A DNA stretch of 56,198 nt, taken from contig JAHDID010000017.1 in NCBI GenBank assembly GCA_020630975.1, forward strand, positions 1 through 56,198. The letters run 5' to 3'. The stretch's first letter is position 1, and the number at the start of each line of letters is the position of its first letter. Positions 4,826 to 17,330 of this stretch are shown in pieces. The notes beneath the pieces are model-generated. The model worked only from the letters and a program-made list of their open reading frames with translations. It had not been told where the DNA came from and did not search any database. The stretch is from Verrucomicrobiota bacterium. Its GTDB lineage: Bacteria > Verrucomicrobiota > Verrucomicrobiia > Verrucomicrobiales > DEV007. The position numbers and the translations under genes were made by a program.

Positions 4826-6709
4826 ATGAACCGCTACACCGCCACTATCCTAGTCCTGACACTCCTTTCTTCCCTGCTCCATGCGGCCTCTCTGGAGATA
4901 CGCATCGTCAGCCTCGACTGGGTCGAGCTAAAGGTGACCACCACCGCTACCGCAGCCCAGACACAGGTCCAGCAGTCGACTGATCTGGAGACATGGACGC
5001 ACTTCGCCACCATCTCTGGTAGCAACGTCACACAAACCTATCAGATACCGACGACTCAAAACCGGATGTACTTCCGCGCCGAGGGAGGGCAGGCTCTGCC
5101 GACTCTCCCTGAGGCGTCTAGATTCCTGACTCAAGCCACCCTCGGGGCCAACTACGAGACCATCGAGCGAGTGGCTCAGATCGGGTACGACGCCTGGATC
5201 ACCGAGCAGATCGCTCTGCCACCCAGCCTGCATCTGCCGCGCAATCAGTCTCTCCAAGTCATCGAGCAAATCGGCGAAGAGCAGCTGATCTTGAGCCCGT
5301 TTATCACCTCGTGGTGGGATCGCGCGATGTATGCCCCAGATGTGCTACGCCAGCGTGTGGCGTTTGCGCTTAGCGAGATATTCGTCGTGTCTTTCAAAGG
5401 CTCCGACATCCTAGAAGATAACCAACCCGCACTGGCTAACTACTACGACATCCTGATGAACGGCTCTTTCGGGAACTTTCGTCAGATGCTCTACGAGGTA
5501 TCGACCAGTGCGGTGATGGGGCACTTCCTAAGCCACGCAGGCAATCGCCGATCCGATCCTACTACCAATCGATTTCCCGATGAGAACTACGCTAGGGAAG
5601 TGATGCAGCTATTCACCATTGGCCTCTATGAGCTGAATCAGGACGGCACTCGGAAGAAAGATCAAAGTGGCAACGATATACCTACCTACACCAATGCTCA
5701 GATCACTGAGTTCGCCAAGATCTTTACCGGTATGACCTACAATTCTGGGGCAGGCGAACCGATTCTCGACGAGCAGGAGTTCATCGAGGCTGTCGAGGAC
5801 AATCTGACCCTACCGATGGCTCGCTACGGCCCGATGCATGAGCCAGGCATCAAGACGCTACTCAATGGTGCGACTACCGACGGCGGAGCGACTCTGGCTG
5901 GTCTGGAGAAAGATCTGAATGCAGCGATCGATAACTTATTTCAACACCCCAATGTGGGTCCTTTCATTGGTCGTCTGTTGATTCAGCGGTTGGTCAAATC
6001 CAACCCCAGTCCTGCCTATATCAGTCGGGTGGCAGCAGTATTTGTCAACAATGGCCAAGGCGTACGCGGCGATATGAGCGCGGTGGTCAGAGCGATCCTC
6101 ATGGACGAGGAGGCCCGCAGTATGGTGGTAGCGATCAATGATCCGACCCATGGCATGCTGCGCGAGCCATTGGTCCGTTTCGCCCACATGGCGCGAGCCT
6201 TCGACATGACCACTACGGCAGGCAATTTTAAACAGTTCTTCCCATTTGCGGTCGAGTCTCTCGGTATGGCACCGCTGCAATCGCCGAGTGTGTTTAATTT
6301 CTTCCTACCCGATCACCAGCCTCTCGGACCGATCGCCCAGGCCGGTCTGGTAGCTCCAGAGTTTCAGATCACTAATGCGACCACCACTATCAGCACGATC
6401 AATATGTGGGGTAGCGAAACGATTGGCGGATTTGGTGTGGGTTTTGAGACCGACTCCGAAGTGCCAGGCCAGCCCGAGACTCGCGTCGATTTGACCGATG
6501 AGATCGCACTGGTGAATGCCAATAACATCAGCGGCCTAGTCGATCGCCTCGATATCTTGCTCACCCGAGGGACTTTATCGACGCAGGCACGGCAGATCAT
6601 CATGAACTCTCTGACCAGTGCGAGTGCTACAGATTTCGACGCCAACGATACCGTGCGCTATGCCCTGTACCTGTTCGCCAATACGGCTGAATTCAACGTG
6701 CTCAAATAA
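4826..6709 (+). CDS. DUF1800 family exported protein
   Basis: About 627 aa. The ATG at 4826 is preferred to the frame start at 4799 because it opens directly into a signal peptide (MNRYTATILVLTLLSSLLHA). Residues 30-85 form a short beta-rich domain. The DUF1800 body begins at about 95 with SRFLTQATLGANYETI and contains RQRVAFALSEIF, FPDENYAREVMQLFTIGLYELN and LMDEEARS, all typical of the family. DUF1800 and DUF1501 proteins are encoded side by side in many Verrucomicrobiota and Planctomycetota, where they are exported; their biochemical role is unknown. The next gene, 27 bp downstream, is the DUF1501 partner. Confidence 0.88.
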   Translation: MNRYTATILVLTLLSSLLHAASLEIRIVSLDWVELKVTTTATAAQTQVQQSTDLETWTHFATISGSNVTQTYQIPTTQNRMYFRAEGGQALPTLPEASRFLTQATLGANYETIERVAQIGYDAWITEQIALPPSLHLPRNQSLQVIEQIGEEQLILSPFITSWWDRAMYAPDVLRQRVAFALSEIFVVSFKGSDILEDNQPALANYYDILMNGSFGNFRQMLYEVSTSAVMGHFLSHAGNRRSDPTTNRFPDENYAREVMQLFTIGLYELNQDGTRKKDQSGNDIPTYTNAQITEFAKIFTGMTYNSGAGEPILDEQEFIEAVEDNLTLPMARYGPMHEPGIKTLLNGATTDGGATLAGLEKDLNAAIDNLFQHPNVGPFIGRLLIQRLVKSNPSPAYISRVAAVFVNNGQGVRGDMSAVVRAILMDEEARSMVVAINDPTHGMLREPLVRFAHMARAFDMTTTAGNFKQFFPFAVESLGMAPLQSPSVFNFFLPDHQPLGPIAQAGLVAPEFQITNATTTISTINMWGSETIGGFGVGFETDSEVPGQPETRVDLTDEIALVNANNISGLVDRLDILLTRGTLSTQARQIIMNSLTSASATDFDANDTVRYALYLFANTAEFNVLK

Positions 6710-6736
6710 ACCATCACTTCACCACAATCGATAACC

Positions 6737-11742: not shown

Positions 11743-14700
11743 CTACTTCGCTACGATCTCTCCGAGCATGGTCATATCGTGCCCAGGGAAGGTGCAGACA
11801 AATGGGTACTTACCTGGCTTTTCTAGGGTGAATTCGATCATGTCTTCTTCGCCTGCATTGAGCATCTTGGTGGCGGCTATGATGTCGCTGTGCTCGGGTA
11901 GCCAGCCTTTGGCGAAGCCTTCGGCTCCTAGGGCCACTGCAGCGGCAGCGATTTCTTTGTTTTTGCCGGGCTGTGTCACCACTAGATTGTGCGCCATCTT
12001 ATCTGGATTGTGCAGGATCAATGTGATCTTCTTGCCTACAGGCACGGTCAGAGTCGCCTTGTCGAACTTTAGCTTACCTTCTAGAGCCGTCACCTCCACT
12101 TGGGTGGGGTCGGGTTTGGCTTGCTTTGGTATTTCTAGCTTTAGCCTCCGCGCAGCGGCTTTGGCTTGATTGGCCACCCCGCCGTTTTCATCAAACACGG
12201 CTGCCAGAATTCTCTCTTTGAGCTGAGTCTGCCGAGCATCACCCGCTGCCTTTAGCAGAACGATTTTCTGCGCCGGATCGGTCCAGGCCTTGTCGAGGGC
12301 GGCTTGGGTCATCTCGATCGACTCTGGGGAGCCGGTCTTGCGATAAGCGAGCTCGGTGACCGCCATCGCAGCCCAATACCCCTCGGGTGAGGAAGGCTGG
12401 CTGTGCAGCAACTGCTCTAAAGCGGTGTGATGATTCTCCAGTTTGCGCTCCTTGAGGAAGGTCTGGCGGGTGGTCTCCAGCTCCTTGCGCGCACCCGATG
12501 CATTTTTCAGAGTATTGAGAGCCGCTAGTGAGCCGCTCAGCGCATCGGTGCTGTCGCTAGCCATCAGTATCTTCACCGCATTCATCAGCGCATTAGGTGA
12601 ACTGGCTGGATCTTTGGCGCAGTTTACCACGATTGGCAGGGCTTTAGCGGGCACATCGGGGCTGCTGGCCAGCTGCCCCACCACTGCAGCAGATTGACTG
12701 CTATCGGCCAAGGCCAGTTCGATCATTCTATCGAGAGCATCATTCGCTGGGATCCGGTTTTTACTGAGCTTTGATAAGGTGAAACTGGCCTCCTCATCAT
12801 TTGCCGTGGTCAAAATCTTGCGCAGCTCAGTGAGAATACGATCGGACTGGTCCCAGGTGGTCAGTGTGTAGTAGGGCCCTCGCGTGTCTGGGCGTGTGCC
12901 CCAGGAGTCGCCAGTCCACTCATCTTCGATGTGATAGAGGCGAGCTAGGGTCGAGATCAGAGGTCGGCGTTTGTCGAGAGTGGTCTCTGTGGCGAGGCGA
13001 GTCAGGAGACTATCGACGACTTCCACTTTGTGGATACGCATCAGTGCCCAGGCGGCTGCCTTTCGAGTGTCGCTATCGTCAGAGCCGATGTACTCGAGTG
13101 CGGCCTCGTGAGCTCCCATCTGCGCTAGAGCACGGTAGGTGGTGTGGCGGATCACCACATCGGCGGAGGCGAGATGTTGGGCGATATCGCCTGCATGGGC
13201 TTGCAGATCCTGCTGCACAGTGAAGAAGATCGACTCCATAATCGCCCGTGAATCGGTCTGGCTGTAGATGCGTGTCAGCAGTGCTTTTGCCGTATCATCG
13301 CCCGCAGGGATGTGCACATCGGCCAATGCGCGAATGACAAAGGGCATCAAATCTGACGCGATCTCTAAGCCTGCGATGTGAGTGAAAGCCCCATCAATAT
13401 CGCCCTGGGTTAGGGTGAAGACAGCAGCGATGCGATCGGCTAAGTCATACTCGGTATCCTGAATCATCACGCTCAGCTCATCGATGGCACGATCCTCGAG
13501 AGGGCCGCGCCGGAGTAGGGCGCGCTGTGCTGCTAGGGTGCGGATGTGAGATGGGGAGTCGAGAGCCTCGATCAGCTCGCTAGGGCTCATAGCTGCGAAG
13601 TCGGGCAGGGCCTCGGGCTGGTAGCCACTTGGCGTCACTCGAGCGATGTAGCCCTGATCTGGTCCTGCCCAAGCGAAATTACCAGGTCCTTTCCAGGATG
13701 ACTGGTAGACGGCGGACATCCCGTCGACTGTAGCATCTGTCGGCTTGGTCATTTTGATGAAAACCTCTGGGGCAGCAGTCTCTTTGTAAGTGCCTCCAGC
13801 CACTTCTACATCATGCCGGTAGGAGCCGGTGCGGCCCCAGTCTACAGTGTAGGGGGCGTCGTTCCATTTGTCTGGGAAACCCGGCTCATGGATGTAGACA
13901 CCGCCGCAGCCAGATCCACCACCATAGTCGGCGAGAGGCGCGATCGTCTCTTTATCGAAGTTTTTGTAGAGTCTAGGGTAGCCGTGGTCTGCCAGTGGCG
14001 TCAGGTGATGAAAGCGCACATCCCAGCCACCGCCGTCGTTGGTATTATCTCGGGAGAAAAGATCGAGGCGCGGCGACATCGGTGTGGCCAGGATATTTCG
14101 GGTGCCGGTGGAGTAGAGCTCTAGCCCAGTGCCGTCGGGGCGGAAGCGCAGCACACCACCACCACGGTGCTCTAGTTTGGTACCATCTGCCCCAGTCGCC
14201 TCCATGAAGCCGAAGTCGCCGCCAGCCACATAGATCCAGCCATCGATACCCATCTCCAGACCATTGGTGGTGTGGTCTGCGGGACGATCCTCAAATCCAA
14301 AGGCAATGTCGGAAATCAGACGCTGAGACTCCTCCGCCACACCATCGTGATCGCGATCATAGAATACTGAGATGTGCGGAGGGTGCAGCAGGTAGAGACG
14401 ATCGTGGTCCCATATGAGCCCGCGAGGGGAGTCGATATCGCGGATGAAAGGGATGACTTCGTCGGCACGGCCATCAGCATCCGTATCGCGCAAGCGCAGC
14501 ACTCGGCCACGACCTGGCTCTCGGCCTAGCGAGCCATTGCCATCGGAGGAGACGTAGAGATCTCCATTGGGCGCGGCACCGACGTAGACTGGGTAATTGG
14601 CCATCTGCCAGGGCGCAAAGAGCGACACATCGAAGCCCTCGGGCACCTTCACATCTTTGAGGATGGCTGCTTCCTCTGCGGGCTCTAGCTTTACGGCTTT

Positions 14701-16095
14701 TGCGGGGATGTTGCCAGCTGTCTTGTAGGGATCGACGATGGGTTGAGTCACAACGATCGTCTTATCACCTACTGGATGTAGTTTTAGCGGTTTACCATCG
14801 GCACCTTTCAGCTGCATTTCGCGGATGGCGGGCCACATGCCTTTTTCCTGCTTTAGCAGCGTTACCCTGAGGAATTTCGTGTTTTCAGCTTTGAACTGAT
14901 CTGTGGTATCGGATTTTCTGAGATTGGTCGAGCCGTCGTAGGCTAGGTCCCAAGCTTTGCCATCTGTAGAGGATTCGATTTTATACTGGTACCATTGGTT
15001 ACCGATCTCCCATTTGATGTTTGATTCGGTGATGGTAGTTGGCTTGTCGAATTCTAGCTGCAACCACGAGGGATAAGAGCCGTCCTTCGCCGTCCAACGA
15101 GTGCTCCCTGTGCCATCGATGGCATGCCAAGGGAAATGGCCTGGAGGGTTTTGCACTGAAGCGGCAGTGAGTGTGGTGGGAATGCTATCCTTATCTGGAT
15201 TGACTTTAGGCAGGCCTGCCGCGGCCGCTTTCTTGGGATCTGGGTTGGCAGGGATCTCAGTGATCAGATTTGAGCCGGTGTAGGGCTGCAGATAGGCGTC
15301 GGTGAGATTGTTGGTGGTCCAGAGCAGACCGCGAGTGACCAGATCCAGATACTTCGGATCTTTCACCACATCGGTGTAGTGCCCTAGGCTGGTGGAAAAA
15401 GAGCGGGCACCCTGTTTGGTATTGGTCCAGGCGACGATGGCGACATCAGTCTGCTTTTGACCACCCTTGTCATAAGTCTGAGTGCCCATGGCGAGGGGCT
15501 CGGCATCGTAGACATCTTCATTGTTGTAGAGCTCGTCCTTTTCGATATGCCAGTCGGCGGAGATCGGCGCAGTGATCGGGTGCTCTTTGTTGGTAAACTG
15601 CACATCGATCGGCTTGTGCGGACCGTGGCGAGTCGACTTCAGGCCGATGTGCTTGTGCCAACGCTCGCTCTTGCTGCGAAATGAGTGCATCGCACAGTGC
15701 AGATGAACGGATGGCACGGTCTGGTGAGCTGCGAGGATGTTATCGAGGATCTTTTCGTCACGATTGCCAGCCGCACATTCGTCGTGGATGACCACATCGT
15801 AACCTGCTGCCCAGTCAGGGTCGCTAAACATGGGGAAGGGAGGATTGACCGACTTGTCACGCGTCCAGATCACGTCGACTCGGACATTGGCCCGCTCTTG
15901 GATGCCTTTGTAAAGGACCTCGTGTTGACCGACGTAGTCATGGCAGCAGCCTCCAGCGATCAAAAGAGCTTTCAGAGGTCGGCTATTCGCTTTGGTCTCT
16001 GAGCCGCTATTTTGCGCGATACCTAGGTAAGACACCAGTGCGATCAGAGCTGAAACTACCAAAATCAGAGGCAGGATAGGTTTGCGATTTCTCAT
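11743..16095 (-). CDS. ThuA / discoidin / PVC-type dehydrogenase / HEAT / azurin multidomain protein
   Basis: 1450 aa from MRNRKPILPLILV, an N-terminal signal or anchor. Domains in order: ThuA-like (about 43-270; LLIAGGCCHDY, VPSVHLHCAMHSFR, SLGHYTD); F5/8-type discoidin (about 310-430); six-bladed beta-propeller of the PVC-type membrane-bound dehydrogenase family (about 485-820; VPEGFDVSLFA, GRVLRLRDTDADGRAD, TTNGLEMGIDGWIYVA); HEAT repeats (about 830-1290); and a C-terminal azurin-like cupredoxin (about 1340-1450) with a His in MAHNLVV and Cys/His/Met in VCTFPGHDMTM as likely type-1 copper ligands. I saw no CxxCH haem motif, which these propeller proteins often carry; the copper domain may be the redox carrier. 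Substrate is probably a sugar or sugar derivative. Large PVC proteins with this order occur in Verrucomicrobiota. Confidence 0.88.
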   Translation of the reverse strand: MRNRKPILPLILVVSALIALVSYLGIAQNSGSETKANSRPLKALLIAGGCCHDYVGQHEVLYKGIQERANVRVDVIWTRDKSVNPPFPMFSDPDWAAGYDVVIHDECAAGNRDEKILDNILAAHQTVPSVHLHCAMHSFRSKSERWHKHIGLKSTRHGPHKPIDVQFTNKEHPITAPISADWHIEKDELYNNEDVYDAEPLAMGTQTYDKGGQKQTDVAIVAWTNTKQGARSFSTSLGHYTDVVKDPKYLDLVTRGLLWTTNNLTDAYLQPYTGSNLITEIPANPDPKKAAAAGLPKVNPDKDSIPTTLTAASVQNPPGHFPWHAIDGTGSTRWTAKDGSYPSWLQLEFDKPTTITESNIKWEIGNQWYQYKIESSTDGKAWDLAYDGSTNLRKSDTTDQFKAENTKFLRVTLLKQEKGMWPAIREMQLKGADGKPLKLHPVGDKTIVVTQPIVDPYKTAGNIPAKAVKLEPAEEAAILKDVKVPEGFDVSLFAPWQMANYPVYVGAAPNGDLYVSSDGNGSLGREPGRGRVLRLRDTDADGRADEVIPFIRDIDSPRGLIWDHDRLYLLHPPHISVFYDRDHDGVAEESQRLISDIAFGFEDRPADHTTNGLEMGIDGWIYVAGGDFGFMEATGADGTKLEHRGGGVLRFRPDGTGLELYSTGTRNILATPMSPRLDLFSRDNTNDGGGWDVRFHHLTPLADHGYPRLYKNFDKETIAPLADYGGGSGCGGVYIHEPGFPDKWNDAPYTVDWGRTGSYRHDVEVAGGTYKETAAPEVFIKMTKPTDATVDGMSAVYQSSWKGPGNFAWAGPDQGYIARVTPSGYQPEALPDFAAMSPSELIEALDSPSHIRTLAAQRALLRRGPLEDRAIDELSVMIQDTEYDLADRIAAVFTLTQGDIDGAFTHIAGLEIASDLMPFVIRALADVHIPAGDDTAKALLTRIYSQTDSRAIMESIFFTVQQDLQAHAGDIAQHLASADVVIRHTTYRALAQMGAHEAALEYIGSDDSDTRKAAAWALMRIHKVEVVDSLLTRLATETTLDKRRPLISTLARLYHIEDEWTGDSWGTRPDTRGPYYTLTTWDQSDRILTELRKILTTANDEEASFTLSKLSKNRIPANDALDRMIELALADSSQSAAVVGQLASSPDVPAKALPIVVNCAKDPASSPNALMNAVKILMASDSTDALSGSLAALNTLKNASGARKELETTRQTFLKERKLENHHTALEQLLHSQPSSPEGYWAAMAVTELAYRKTGSPESIEMTQAALDKAWTDPAQKIVLLKAAGDARQTQLKERILAAVFDENGGVANQAKAAARRLKLEIPKQAKPDPTQVEVTALEGKLKFDKATLTVPVGKKITLILHNPDKMAHNLVVTQPGKNKEIAAAAVALGAEGFAKGWLPEHSDIIAATKMLNAGEEDMIEFTLEKPGKYPFVCTFPGHDMTMLGEIVAK

Positions 16096-16125
16096 CGGCA
16101 GCACCTTGCTATGAGAGGCAACTTT

Positions 16126-16216
16126 GTCTAGGCGGTTTAACAGGCCTAAATCAGCTCTATTTTGATGAAAATTAGGATGTAAAACCGGCCTGTTTACGAG
16201 CGTCTAGGGCGGTTTA
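16126..16216. promoter_or_regulatory. divergent promoter region with direct and inverted repeats
   Basis: GTCTAGGCGGTTTA (16126-16139) recurs as GTCTAGGGCGGTTTA (16202-16216), 76 bases away. Between them AACAGGCC (16139-16146) and GGCCTGTT (16187-16194) form a perfect 8-bp inverted repeat. The block sits between the divergent 1450-aa PVC gene and the UGA-containing HMA gene, so it probably holds operators for one or both. No convincing -35/-10 pair was identified. Confidence 0.4.
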
Positions 16217-16248
16217 CTTTTGTCTTGGGATGTGTTTTGATCTTTGAG

Positions 16249-16686
16249 ATGCAACTCCTCGACCAATCATTTCGTTTCACTTTGGTTCTTGTCTGGTTTC
16301 TGGCAGTTTCAGGTATCGTCATAGCTGAGGAAAAACAAGCCAACCCCAAGCGGACACCATTTCAGGCTGAGCTCGGAGATGTGATCTACCTCTCGGCGAT
16401 GACCGGGGTGAAATGAACGGGGTGCAGAAAGAAAGTCCGTGCGGCTTTCTCGACATTGGCAGGCTACAAATCCATGAAGATCGCATCTCGCGATGATGGC
16501 ACCCAGAAAGTGACGCTACTCACCGATGGCAGTGAGCCGCTCTCTCAAGACCAAGCCATCGCCGCGCTGGGAGATCGTGCCCAGCGCTACACTGTGGTCA
16601 CATGGGTGGTGGGCAAGCCACTGGGTCCCTATGGCGTATCGCAGGCAAATAAGCGCCGCAACGCCGAAGCACAGGAATCGAAGTGA
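16249..16686 (+). CDS. exported HMA-domain protein, predicted selenoprotein (in-frame UGA in UxxC)
   Basis: A continuous reading frame interrupted by one TGA at 16414-16416; read through, it gives 145 aa. ATG 16249 opens a signal peptide (MQLLDQSFRFTLVLVWFLAVSGIVIA). The mature part has the beta-alpha-beta-beta-alpha-beta pattern of an HMA domain: strand VIYLSAMT, then GVK-U-TGCRKKVRAAFSTLAGYK, strand QKVTLLTDG, helix LSQDQAIAALGD, strand YTVVTW. The TGA falls exactly on the first cysteine of the metal-binding CxxC (Sec56-Thr-Gly-Cys59), and codon choice and protein character are unchanged on both sides. A bSECIS-like hairpin follows at 16430-16450. Sec insertion is therefore the favoured reading; a Cys-to-stop nonsense mutation (TGC or TGT to TGA) is the alternative. 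No sel genes lie in the window. The role is probably periplasmic binding of a soft metal or a redox function. Confidence 0.72.
16430..16450 (+). promoter_or_regulatory. candidate bacterial SECIS hairpin
   Basis: AGAAAGTC (16430-16437) pairs with GGCTTTCT (16443-16450): eight pairs including one G-U, closing a 5-nt loop CGUGC. The loop begins 21 nt after the UGA (16414-16416) and has G as its second base. Known bSECIS elements have a small apical loop with a G among the first two bases, about 16-37 nt after the UGA, so this fits. It lies inside the coding frame, as bacterial SECIS elements do. Confidence 0.6.
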
Positions 16687-16746
16687 GCGTTTGAATTGTA
16701 GAGTGTTGAAAAACGTTTAGACGGCGCTTACTGAACGCTCAGTTCA

Positions 16747-17196
16747 ATGGCGAAAGAAGAACTCATAGCCGAAATTGAAGCCGCATTCGATCGGACATCT
16801 CCGCGAGGATTGCGCATTACGATTGACTCGGGTATGGGTGATTACCCAGAGGTGCGCAACCATTTTCACCATCGGGATTGGTGGACTTGTGACGCCTCAT
16901 ATCTGAAACAACAGGACGGGGCATTCACTTTCATGACCGATGAAGCCCGAGTTTACTTCACTCCAGCATTCATGATTGCGAGTCTTCGAGACCCTATCAC
17001 GGCTGATACAGTTCCAGACGACTTCGTTGGGAATCTAAAGGAGGATTTGTTGAAGTATTACAGTCCAGTCCAACTTCAAACGATAAGAAGGTTCATTGAG
17101 TTTCATTTTACCGACGAGCCATGGAACGATCCAAACTGGCGAGAGCAGCATGCGCTGGTAGAACGGATCGAACAAACAGGTGGGGGGAAGGTGTGA
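16747..17196 (+). CDS. DUF6714-like cytoplasmic protein
   Basis: 149 aa beginning MAKEELIAEIEAAFDRTSPRG, with no signal peptide. The middle section (WWTCDASYLKQQDGAFTFMTDEARVYFTPAFMIASL) and the later SPVQLQTIRRFIEFHF resemble the DUF6714 family, whose members have an aromatic 'aFxFhtpeaxRyylPayml' block; the function of that family is unknown. It follows the HMA gene by 60 bp, and TGAAC-GCTCA-GTTCA (16732-16746) lies directly before the start codon, where it could affect initiation. A perfect 14-bp palindrome follows the gene at 17222. Confidence 0.6.
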   Translation: MAKEELIAEIEAAFDRTSPRGLRITIDSGMGDYPEVRNHFHHRDWWTCDASYLKQQDGAFTFMTDEARVYFTPAFMIASLRDPITADTVPDDFVGNLKEDLLKYYSPVQLQTIRRFIEFHFTDEPWNDPNWREQHALVERIEQTGGGKV

Positions 17197-17221
17197 AGTG
17201 GTCCAGACCCGAAGCGCCGAG

Positions 17222-17235
17222 GTTGAGAACTCAAC
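17222..17235. repeat. 14-bp palindrome after the DUF6714-like gene
   Basis: GTTGAG-AA-CTCAAC is a perfect inverted repeat 25 bp past the stop codon, in a 134-bp gap between convergent genes. It could be the tip of a terminator for either strand, but there is no uridine run and the stem is only 6 bp. Confidence 0.3.
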
Positions 17236-17330
17236 TATACCATCCTGCGAGTTGTCGTTAGCTCGGTAACAAAGATAGCGTGAGGGAGTGGAAAAGTTTA
17301 GCCCACTCCACCACTCGGCTTTATACCCAA

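Follow-up and report, generated by a model that had tools for sequence, protein, structure and literature searches.

Heavy-metal-associated (HMA) domains bind soft metals through a CxxC motif, the first cysteine of which is the more exposed ligand, and the UxxC motif of a P-type ATPase selenoprotein is located in its HMA domain. Selenocysteine (Sec)-containing HMA proteins are already known from the families NF041115 (UxxU_metal_bind) and NF045683 (MerT_CopZ_Se, a MerT/CopZ fusion-like heavy metal transport selenoprotein). Parts of a 2026 review (PMC13188914) describe a UxxU motif with two Sec in the known NF041115 family, a putative mercuric reductase, and list in a table a P-type ATPase selenoprotein with a UxxC motif; a GOS table in part of PMC2398784 lists two Sec sequences under 'MerP'. 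No exported stand-alone HMA family with UxxC appears among the best-ranked titles and abstract openings of the open-licence literature searched, or in the examined parts of the review's Table 1 (PMC13188914).

In the window, the whole analysed stretch of 56,198 nucleotides from a Verrucomicrobiota bacterium, a gene has been identified for a predicted small protein that is probably exported and has a single HMA domain. SelB and tRNA-Sec would read the in-frame UGA of this gene as selenocysteine, guided by a short hairpin that lies within the coding sequence shortly after the UGA (Table 1). Its likeness to NF041115 is the HMA-like metal-binding domain with Sec, and 11 of 19 scanned family members match that model weakly; however, the motif there is UxxU and not UxxC, and the window protein reaches 14.8 bits against a cut-off of 95. 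NF045683 resembles it by name, through a CopZ-like (HMA) part, which is fused to a MerT-like part there, whereas the window gene encodes a stand-alone domain; three of the 19 family members match (best E 0.00045), two paralogues of the own genome score 18.9 and 15.4 bits against a cut-off of 375, and the window copy gives no match at E <= 1. As judged from its sequence, the window protein is thus far below the cut-offs of both families. With the P-type ATPase selenoprotein the UxxC is held in common, but the ATPase part has no counterpart in the window gene. The periplasmic mercury-binding MerP (TIGR02052) shares the exported single HMA domain and the position of the CxxC, with Cys in MerP where the window gene would have Sec; 14 of the 19 members match this model weakly (paralogues with 28.5, 23.8 and 31 bits and L047 with 20.1, all against a cut-off of 92.55), and the window copy does not match.

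Table 1. Position of the window gene, its parts and related loci (G000, own genome; G000:C, contig of the own genome)
Feature	Locus or contig	Position	Strand	Remarks
Probably exported HMA-domain selenoprotein gene	window	16249..16686	+	145 aa read through; stop TGA 16684-16686
Probable signal peptide MQLLDQSFRFTLVLVWFLAVSGIVIA	window	16249..16326	+	by-eye judgement; model helix 7-19; family N-termini alike
HMA-like domain, beta-alpha-beta-beta-alpha-beta, residues 44-120	window	16378..16608	+	AlphaFold model; profile match to PDB HMA domains
In-frame TGA as predicted Sec codon, first position of UxxC	window	16414..16416	+	frame reading and family alignment
Conserved second Cys (TGC) of UxxC	window	16423..16425	+	frame reading and family alignment
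Predicted SECIS hairpin AGAAAGTC-CGTGC-GGCTTTCT	window	16430..16450	+	loop 21 nt past TGA; core stem 16433-16437/16443-16447
Two-domain tandem HMA gene, two predicted Sec codons (GVTUGGC twice)	L100, G000:C79	7087-7488	-	divergent from mnmH
TGA-type HMA copy with long C-terminal extension	L013, G000:C126	1252-1806	-	
Lipoprotein-like HMA gene, GMK-U-GSSC (UxxxC)	L184, G000:C79	TGA 6554-6556	+	with hairpin
Two-domain HMA gene, four in-frame TGAs	L185, G000:C31	6657-7229	+	TGAs at 6717, 6762, 6849, 7047
Selenium island	L097	529-11615		order: phosphonate-type ABC ATPase, selenate-binding (putative), SelA, SelD, SenB-like, SenA-like, ArsS, NifS-like, MnmH, HMA-U
ZnuA-cluster loci	L082, L084, L085, L087, L088, L090, L091			

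The window gene and its HMA domain

The original prediction of a single TGA in an otherwise continuous frame has been confirmed, as the TGA is the sole internal stop of the gene, which reads DVIYLSAMTGVK-U-TGCRKKVRAAFSTLAGYK and contains MTGVK-U-TGC-RKKVRAAF with the predicted Sec as residue 56; a TTG at 16225 is a possible alternative start. A plain ORF list without read-through holds two ORFs, 16225-16416 and 16456-16686, and in this mechanical list the frame does split in two, as had been foreseen for automatic annotation. The placement of the TGA at the first Cys of an HMA CxxC stands (GVK-U-TGC); the wording of the motif, GMxUxxC, had to be changed to GVxUxxC. Upstream of the TGA, the window copy and 49 TGA-type relatives from its GTDB family are identical at 68, 65 and 37% of codon positions 1, 2 and 3 (539 codon comparisons), and downstream of the hairpin at 51, 61 and 31% (mean over 48 relatives, one with N dropped); in the six codons directly after the hairpin, compared ungapped, the phase is weaker, with 41, 40 and 32%. 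By these codon positions the frame is constrained at the protein level on both sides of the TGA, and the claimed continuity of protein character across it is borne out, more weakly in those six codons. Furthermore, N-termini throughout the family are signal-peptide-like by by-eye judgement, which supports the signal peptide proposed initially and makes export of the window gene product likely.

The assignment to the HMA domains holds for the family. Pfam HMA (PF00403) scores above its cut-off for three paralogues (45.5 and 33.9 bits, and 36.3 bits for the Cys paralogue), and at E <= 0.01 it matches 15 of the 19 scanned family members and leaves four without a match; the window copy itself, with 16.8 bits, lies below the cut-off of 24.8. 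An AlphaFold model built with a 46-row alignment (pTM 0.59, mean pLDDT 77.5 overall, 86-97 in the ten-residue blocks from 41 to 120) has strands at 45-52, 73-80, 86-92 and 115-122 and helices at 57-67 and 100-112, which is the strand-helix-strand-strand-helix-strand order of HMA, and residue 56, the predicted Sec, directly precedes the helix 57-67. Foldseek returned one match at E <= 0.001, a rice HMA-domain complex (8b2r_A), and alone cannot single out HMA because other ferredoxin-like folds are mixed among the further HMA matches; more specific is the profile search of the PDB, which gave ATP7B, mercuric reductase, CopA, CopZ and MerP. An HMA fold of the window protein, as modelled, is highly probable.

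Hairpin and decoding machinery

Across 58 distinct TGA sequences, 98.3% of the cells are paired in the stem columns 20-24/30-34, counted from the TGA, and 20 cells are changed on both sides, with a covariation score of 0.268; none of these three values was reached in any of 500 shuffles. Double changes in 3 pairs were reached by 43 of 500 shuffles, and 7 additional pair types by 4. Slid controls for the stem are paired at 24-46%, RNAalifold finds the same stem, and exceptions consist of U-U at columns 23/31 in four distinct sequences and a missing pair 20/34 in one; the window stem has A-U at columns 21/33, where C-G stands in most. Pairing drops to 42% of the cells in the ten nearest Cys homologues, a share that 496 of 500 shuffles reach, and to 35% in 33 Cys homologues. 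Equally, where the +8 codon encodes Ser it is AGT in 34 of 34 TGA domains, and neighbouring ORFs of >= 300 aa use AGT for 11.7% of their serines. The window hairpin is about as stable as its shuffles (z 0.07; 97 of 200 shuffles as stable), and since folding z-scores are uninformative, covariation and the Cys-homologue controls were relied on instead.

The bSECIS model, as given in part of PMC13188914, has a loop of 3-9 nt, a stem of 4-16 bp, a G in the first two loop positions, a distance of 16-37 nt from the UGA and an MFE <= -7.5 kcal/mol. The window hairpin lies within all of these ranges, with a loop of 5 nt (CGUGC), a stem of 8 bp, a distance of 21 nt and -9.5 kcal/mol over 45 nt; of five folded relatives, L086 (-8.9 kcal/mol) is within the energy limit and L011 (-7.0), L013 (-6.8), L045 (-7.2) and L078 (-3.4) are outside it. 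A search of 15800-17300 with Rfam gave no match. A scan of both strands of the 56 kb window for a TGA with a family-type hairpin and open frames on both sides found one site, the window gene, and a scan of the same type over 60 other loci recovered the majority of the family members, missed those with a U-U stem and added ten sites that do not belong to the family; the scan is partly circular, since its loop patterns come from the family itself.

A search of the own genome (G000; 7.14 Mb, 158 contigs) for selA, selB, selC and selD had been proposed along with the prediction, and all four are present. Matches to the Sec machinery below the cut-off are common in 14 control genomes, and therefore only cut-offs count. 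Above the curated cut-offs are selA (522 bits), selD (301 bits) and selB (272.6 bits, 296.5 with a neighbour stretch), and a tRNA-Sec reaches 58.6 bits against a cut-off of 47, the only one of 15 matches above it, with the ARAGORN anticodon tca; it lies on another contig than the window, in which a tRNA search found none. The SelD of the genome is Cys-type (HCGGCGSK) and fused to an oxidoreductase. In five relatives (L092-L095, L097) SelD is Sec-type, with CAGUASK or CGGUASK and a TGA, as read upstream of the SelD ORFs, so that the case for Sec decoding in the lineage extends beyond the HMA genes. Within the GTDB family, selA occurs in 42 of the 44 genomes with a TGA-type HMA gene vs 7 of the 30 others (Fisher p 5.6e-11, from a hand count and by a test that ignores shared ancestry), the 42 being composed of 40 above the cut-off and partial matches in G421 and G451; a convincing selA was not found in G432 and G434 (59% and 53% complete), an 18.9-bit match in G432 being counted as absent. 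On this sequence evidence, the UGA of the window gene is almost certainly decoded as selenocysteine.

Distribution of the family and a second motif type

Three further HMA domains with a TGA at the identical codon are encoded by the own genome, a tandem pair in one gene (C79) and a single domain that carries a C-terminal extension (C126); contig C5 encodes a Cys paralogue. Of the 74 genomes of the GTDB family, 59 match at E <= 1e-4 and 44 have a TGA-bearing match; among the 386 genomes of the order, Verrucomicrobiales, 142 give a match at E <= 1e-8; and in a sample of the phylum 8 of 387 match at E <= 1e-10, which are the own genome and seven from its order, or 9 of 387 at E <= 1e-5 with a narrower model. 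The GTDB-family search yielded 84 distinct domain hits, 50 of TGA type (44 genomes), 33 of Cys type and one weak hit without the motif (L037), and 20 regions from 19 genomes of the order, chosen mostly for a reported stop inside the match, yielded 21 hits, 12 of TGA type (11 genomes) and 9 of Cys type. Altogether, 62 TGA domains from 55 genomes and 42 Cys domains are found among 105 hits, so that homologues align either TGA or Cys at the UGA codon, as the prediction had implied; the Cys three codons past the TGA is kept in all TGA-type hits, and the decay that might have spoken for broken genes is not seen, with no in-domain stop other than the TGA among the 105 hits. A tree of the 62 U and 42 C rows (104 in total, without L037) requires three U/C changes, and its deep forks, resting on 81 columns, are weak. 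The window copy forms a long branch with <= 46% identity to any other row, has no close orthologue among the tree rows and is grouped, unsurely, with a clade of Cys paralogues. In G580, a divergent second TGA copy (GVTUGNC; L169 2163-2207, minus strand) stands beside a normal copy and keeps the stem, with G-C at columns 21/33.

A search of the own genome with NF041115 brought up two more TGA-bearing HMA genes (38.4, 37.7 and 29.7 bits, cut-off 95), the lipoprotein-like L184 and the two-domain L185. The domain motifs of L185, GMK-U-GVGC and GMK-U-GNSC, are both UxxxC, and two further TGAs are located in a Lys-rich linker between a signal-like N-terminus and the first domain, past which the first possible start codon (ATG, GTG or TTG) is an ATG that precedes the third TGA by two codons. 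SECIS-like hairpins with GTC loops stand downstream of all four TGAs, with stems of 4, 7, 8 and 8 bp; by criteria chosen after the gene was seen, such hairpins follow 32 of 17,805 TGA triplets in background DNA, true cases included. TGA-bearing homologues of L184 are found in G455, G411 (two) and G394, the last over only 42 residues, after which the frame departs; G418 and an own-genome copy (C93) have no stop, and overall a match occurs in 5 of the 74 genomes. Selenoproteins overwhelmingly contain a single Sec, and a small group contains two or three, according to part of the 2026 review (PMC13188914); a four-Sec gene, if true, would go beyond that. Tentatively, the lineage may have built a set of exported HMA selenoproteins, in the own genome at least five genes with two motif types (UxxC and UxxxC) and nine UGA codons, four of them in one gene, which might work together outside the cytoplasm to trap or pass on a soft metal or selenium through their selenols.

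Gene neighbourhood and the role of the protein

Neighbourhoods were compared in 38 chosen context loci, in which clusters were named from one member each and family libraries were searched with 19 of the 370 neighbour ORFs. ORFs of the MnmH cluster are present in 14 of the 38 loci, all in genus g1 (14 of its 17 contexts) and all divergent from the HMA-U gene, and in none of the contexts of other genera; NifS-cluster ORFs occur in 15 of the 38 and SelD and SelA clusters in five each. In the island at L097, the putative selenate-binding protein TIGR04553, SelA, SelD, ArsS and MnmH are above their cut-offs, and the NifS-type desulfurase (426.7 vs 530.75), SenB (294.7 vs 300) and SenA (410 vs 420) are below; Pfam finds no domain in two conserved neighbour ORFs of this locus (12203-15511 and 15521-16540). 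In genus g202, a ZnuA-cluster gene, one member of which was scanned with Pfam, is located directly upstream of the HMA-U gene on the same strand in seven loci. None of these selenium or ZnuA-type genes is found around the window copy, the divergent neighbour of which (11743-16104, minus strand) encodes a large ThuA/DUF7133/F5-F8 type C protein with a C-terminal plastocyanin/azurin-like Cu domain, and the 19 scanned neighbour ORFs include none named as a mer gene or a P-type ATPase. Judged by annotation, the neighbourhood suggests selenium in one genus and a Zn-type binding protein in another, without proving either.

An exported HMA protein with the UGA read as Sec is overall the best explanation of the window gene, and the sequence evidence gives it strong credence. 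A Cys codon turned into TGA by mutation or mis-call, which would make the gene a pseudogene or an assembly error, requires only one substitution from TGC or TGT, and the window copy is without a close orthologue for direct confirmation; nevertheless this origin is very improbable, as the TGA recurs in 61 other domains in 55 genomes including its own, is the single stop in a frame with codon-phase conservation on either side, and is followed by the covarying hairpin, which the window copy has retained, so that a decayed gene was rejected. Chance read-through was equally rejected, on the codon phase on both sides and the three domains with a TGA at the same codon in the genome. A UGA read as Trp or Cys through a reassigned code or a suppressor found nothing in its favour, deserves hardly any credence and was rejected, since the homologues examined align Cys and not Trp, selABCD and tRNA-Sec are present, Cys homologues do not keep the hairpin, and TGA is likewise the stop of both the window gene and the next ORF (16747-17196).

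With the UGA read as Sec, a selenol would stand in place of the thiol of the first metal ligand, and the extracytoplasmic Sec domain would therefore bind a soft ion or electrophile more tightly, or react faster, than a Cys domain, candidate ligands being Cu(I), Hg(II), Ag(I) or reduced selenium species. That soft-metal or selenium binding is the main job of the protein falls somewhat short of an even chance. Extracytoplasmic thiol/selenol redox by selenenylsulfide exchange, and not metal binding, would agree with UxxC as a common redox motif of selenoproteins (part of PMC13188914) and with ZnuA in one genus as the sole metal transporter named among the scanned neighbour ORFs, but appears unlikely for a fold that is HMA-type, not thioredoxin-type, with Cu-ATPase domains, mercuric reductase, CopZ and MerP leading the PDB profile matches. 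A selenium carrier or sensor, the selenol of which would bind selenide or selenite species for uptake or supply, would explain the place beside mnmH and other selenium genes, as seen in the divergent mnmH of genus g1, in the L097 island with its NifS-like, SelD, SelA and putative selenate-binding genes, and in the own genome, where mnmH still adjoins the two-domain copy L100; such a role is nonetheless rather doubtful, given the other genera, with ZnuA instead of mnmH in the g202 loci, and the Cys relatives that persist (L163, L164, L166-L168, L179-L181). Selenium or soft-metal handling seems likelier than general thiol redox, because the gene family adjoins selenium genes in its genus.

The window gene adds a selenoprotein family, so far from one Verrucomicrobiota order, that is split in two by a plain ORF list. 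The occurrence of U or C at one codon of the same fold in relatives represents a natural Sec/Cys swap, which makes Sec as a metal ligand outside catalysis testable. Furthermore, the adjacency to mnmH and, in some genomes, to selD, selA and selenoneine-like genes offers a handle on the steps of selenium supply.
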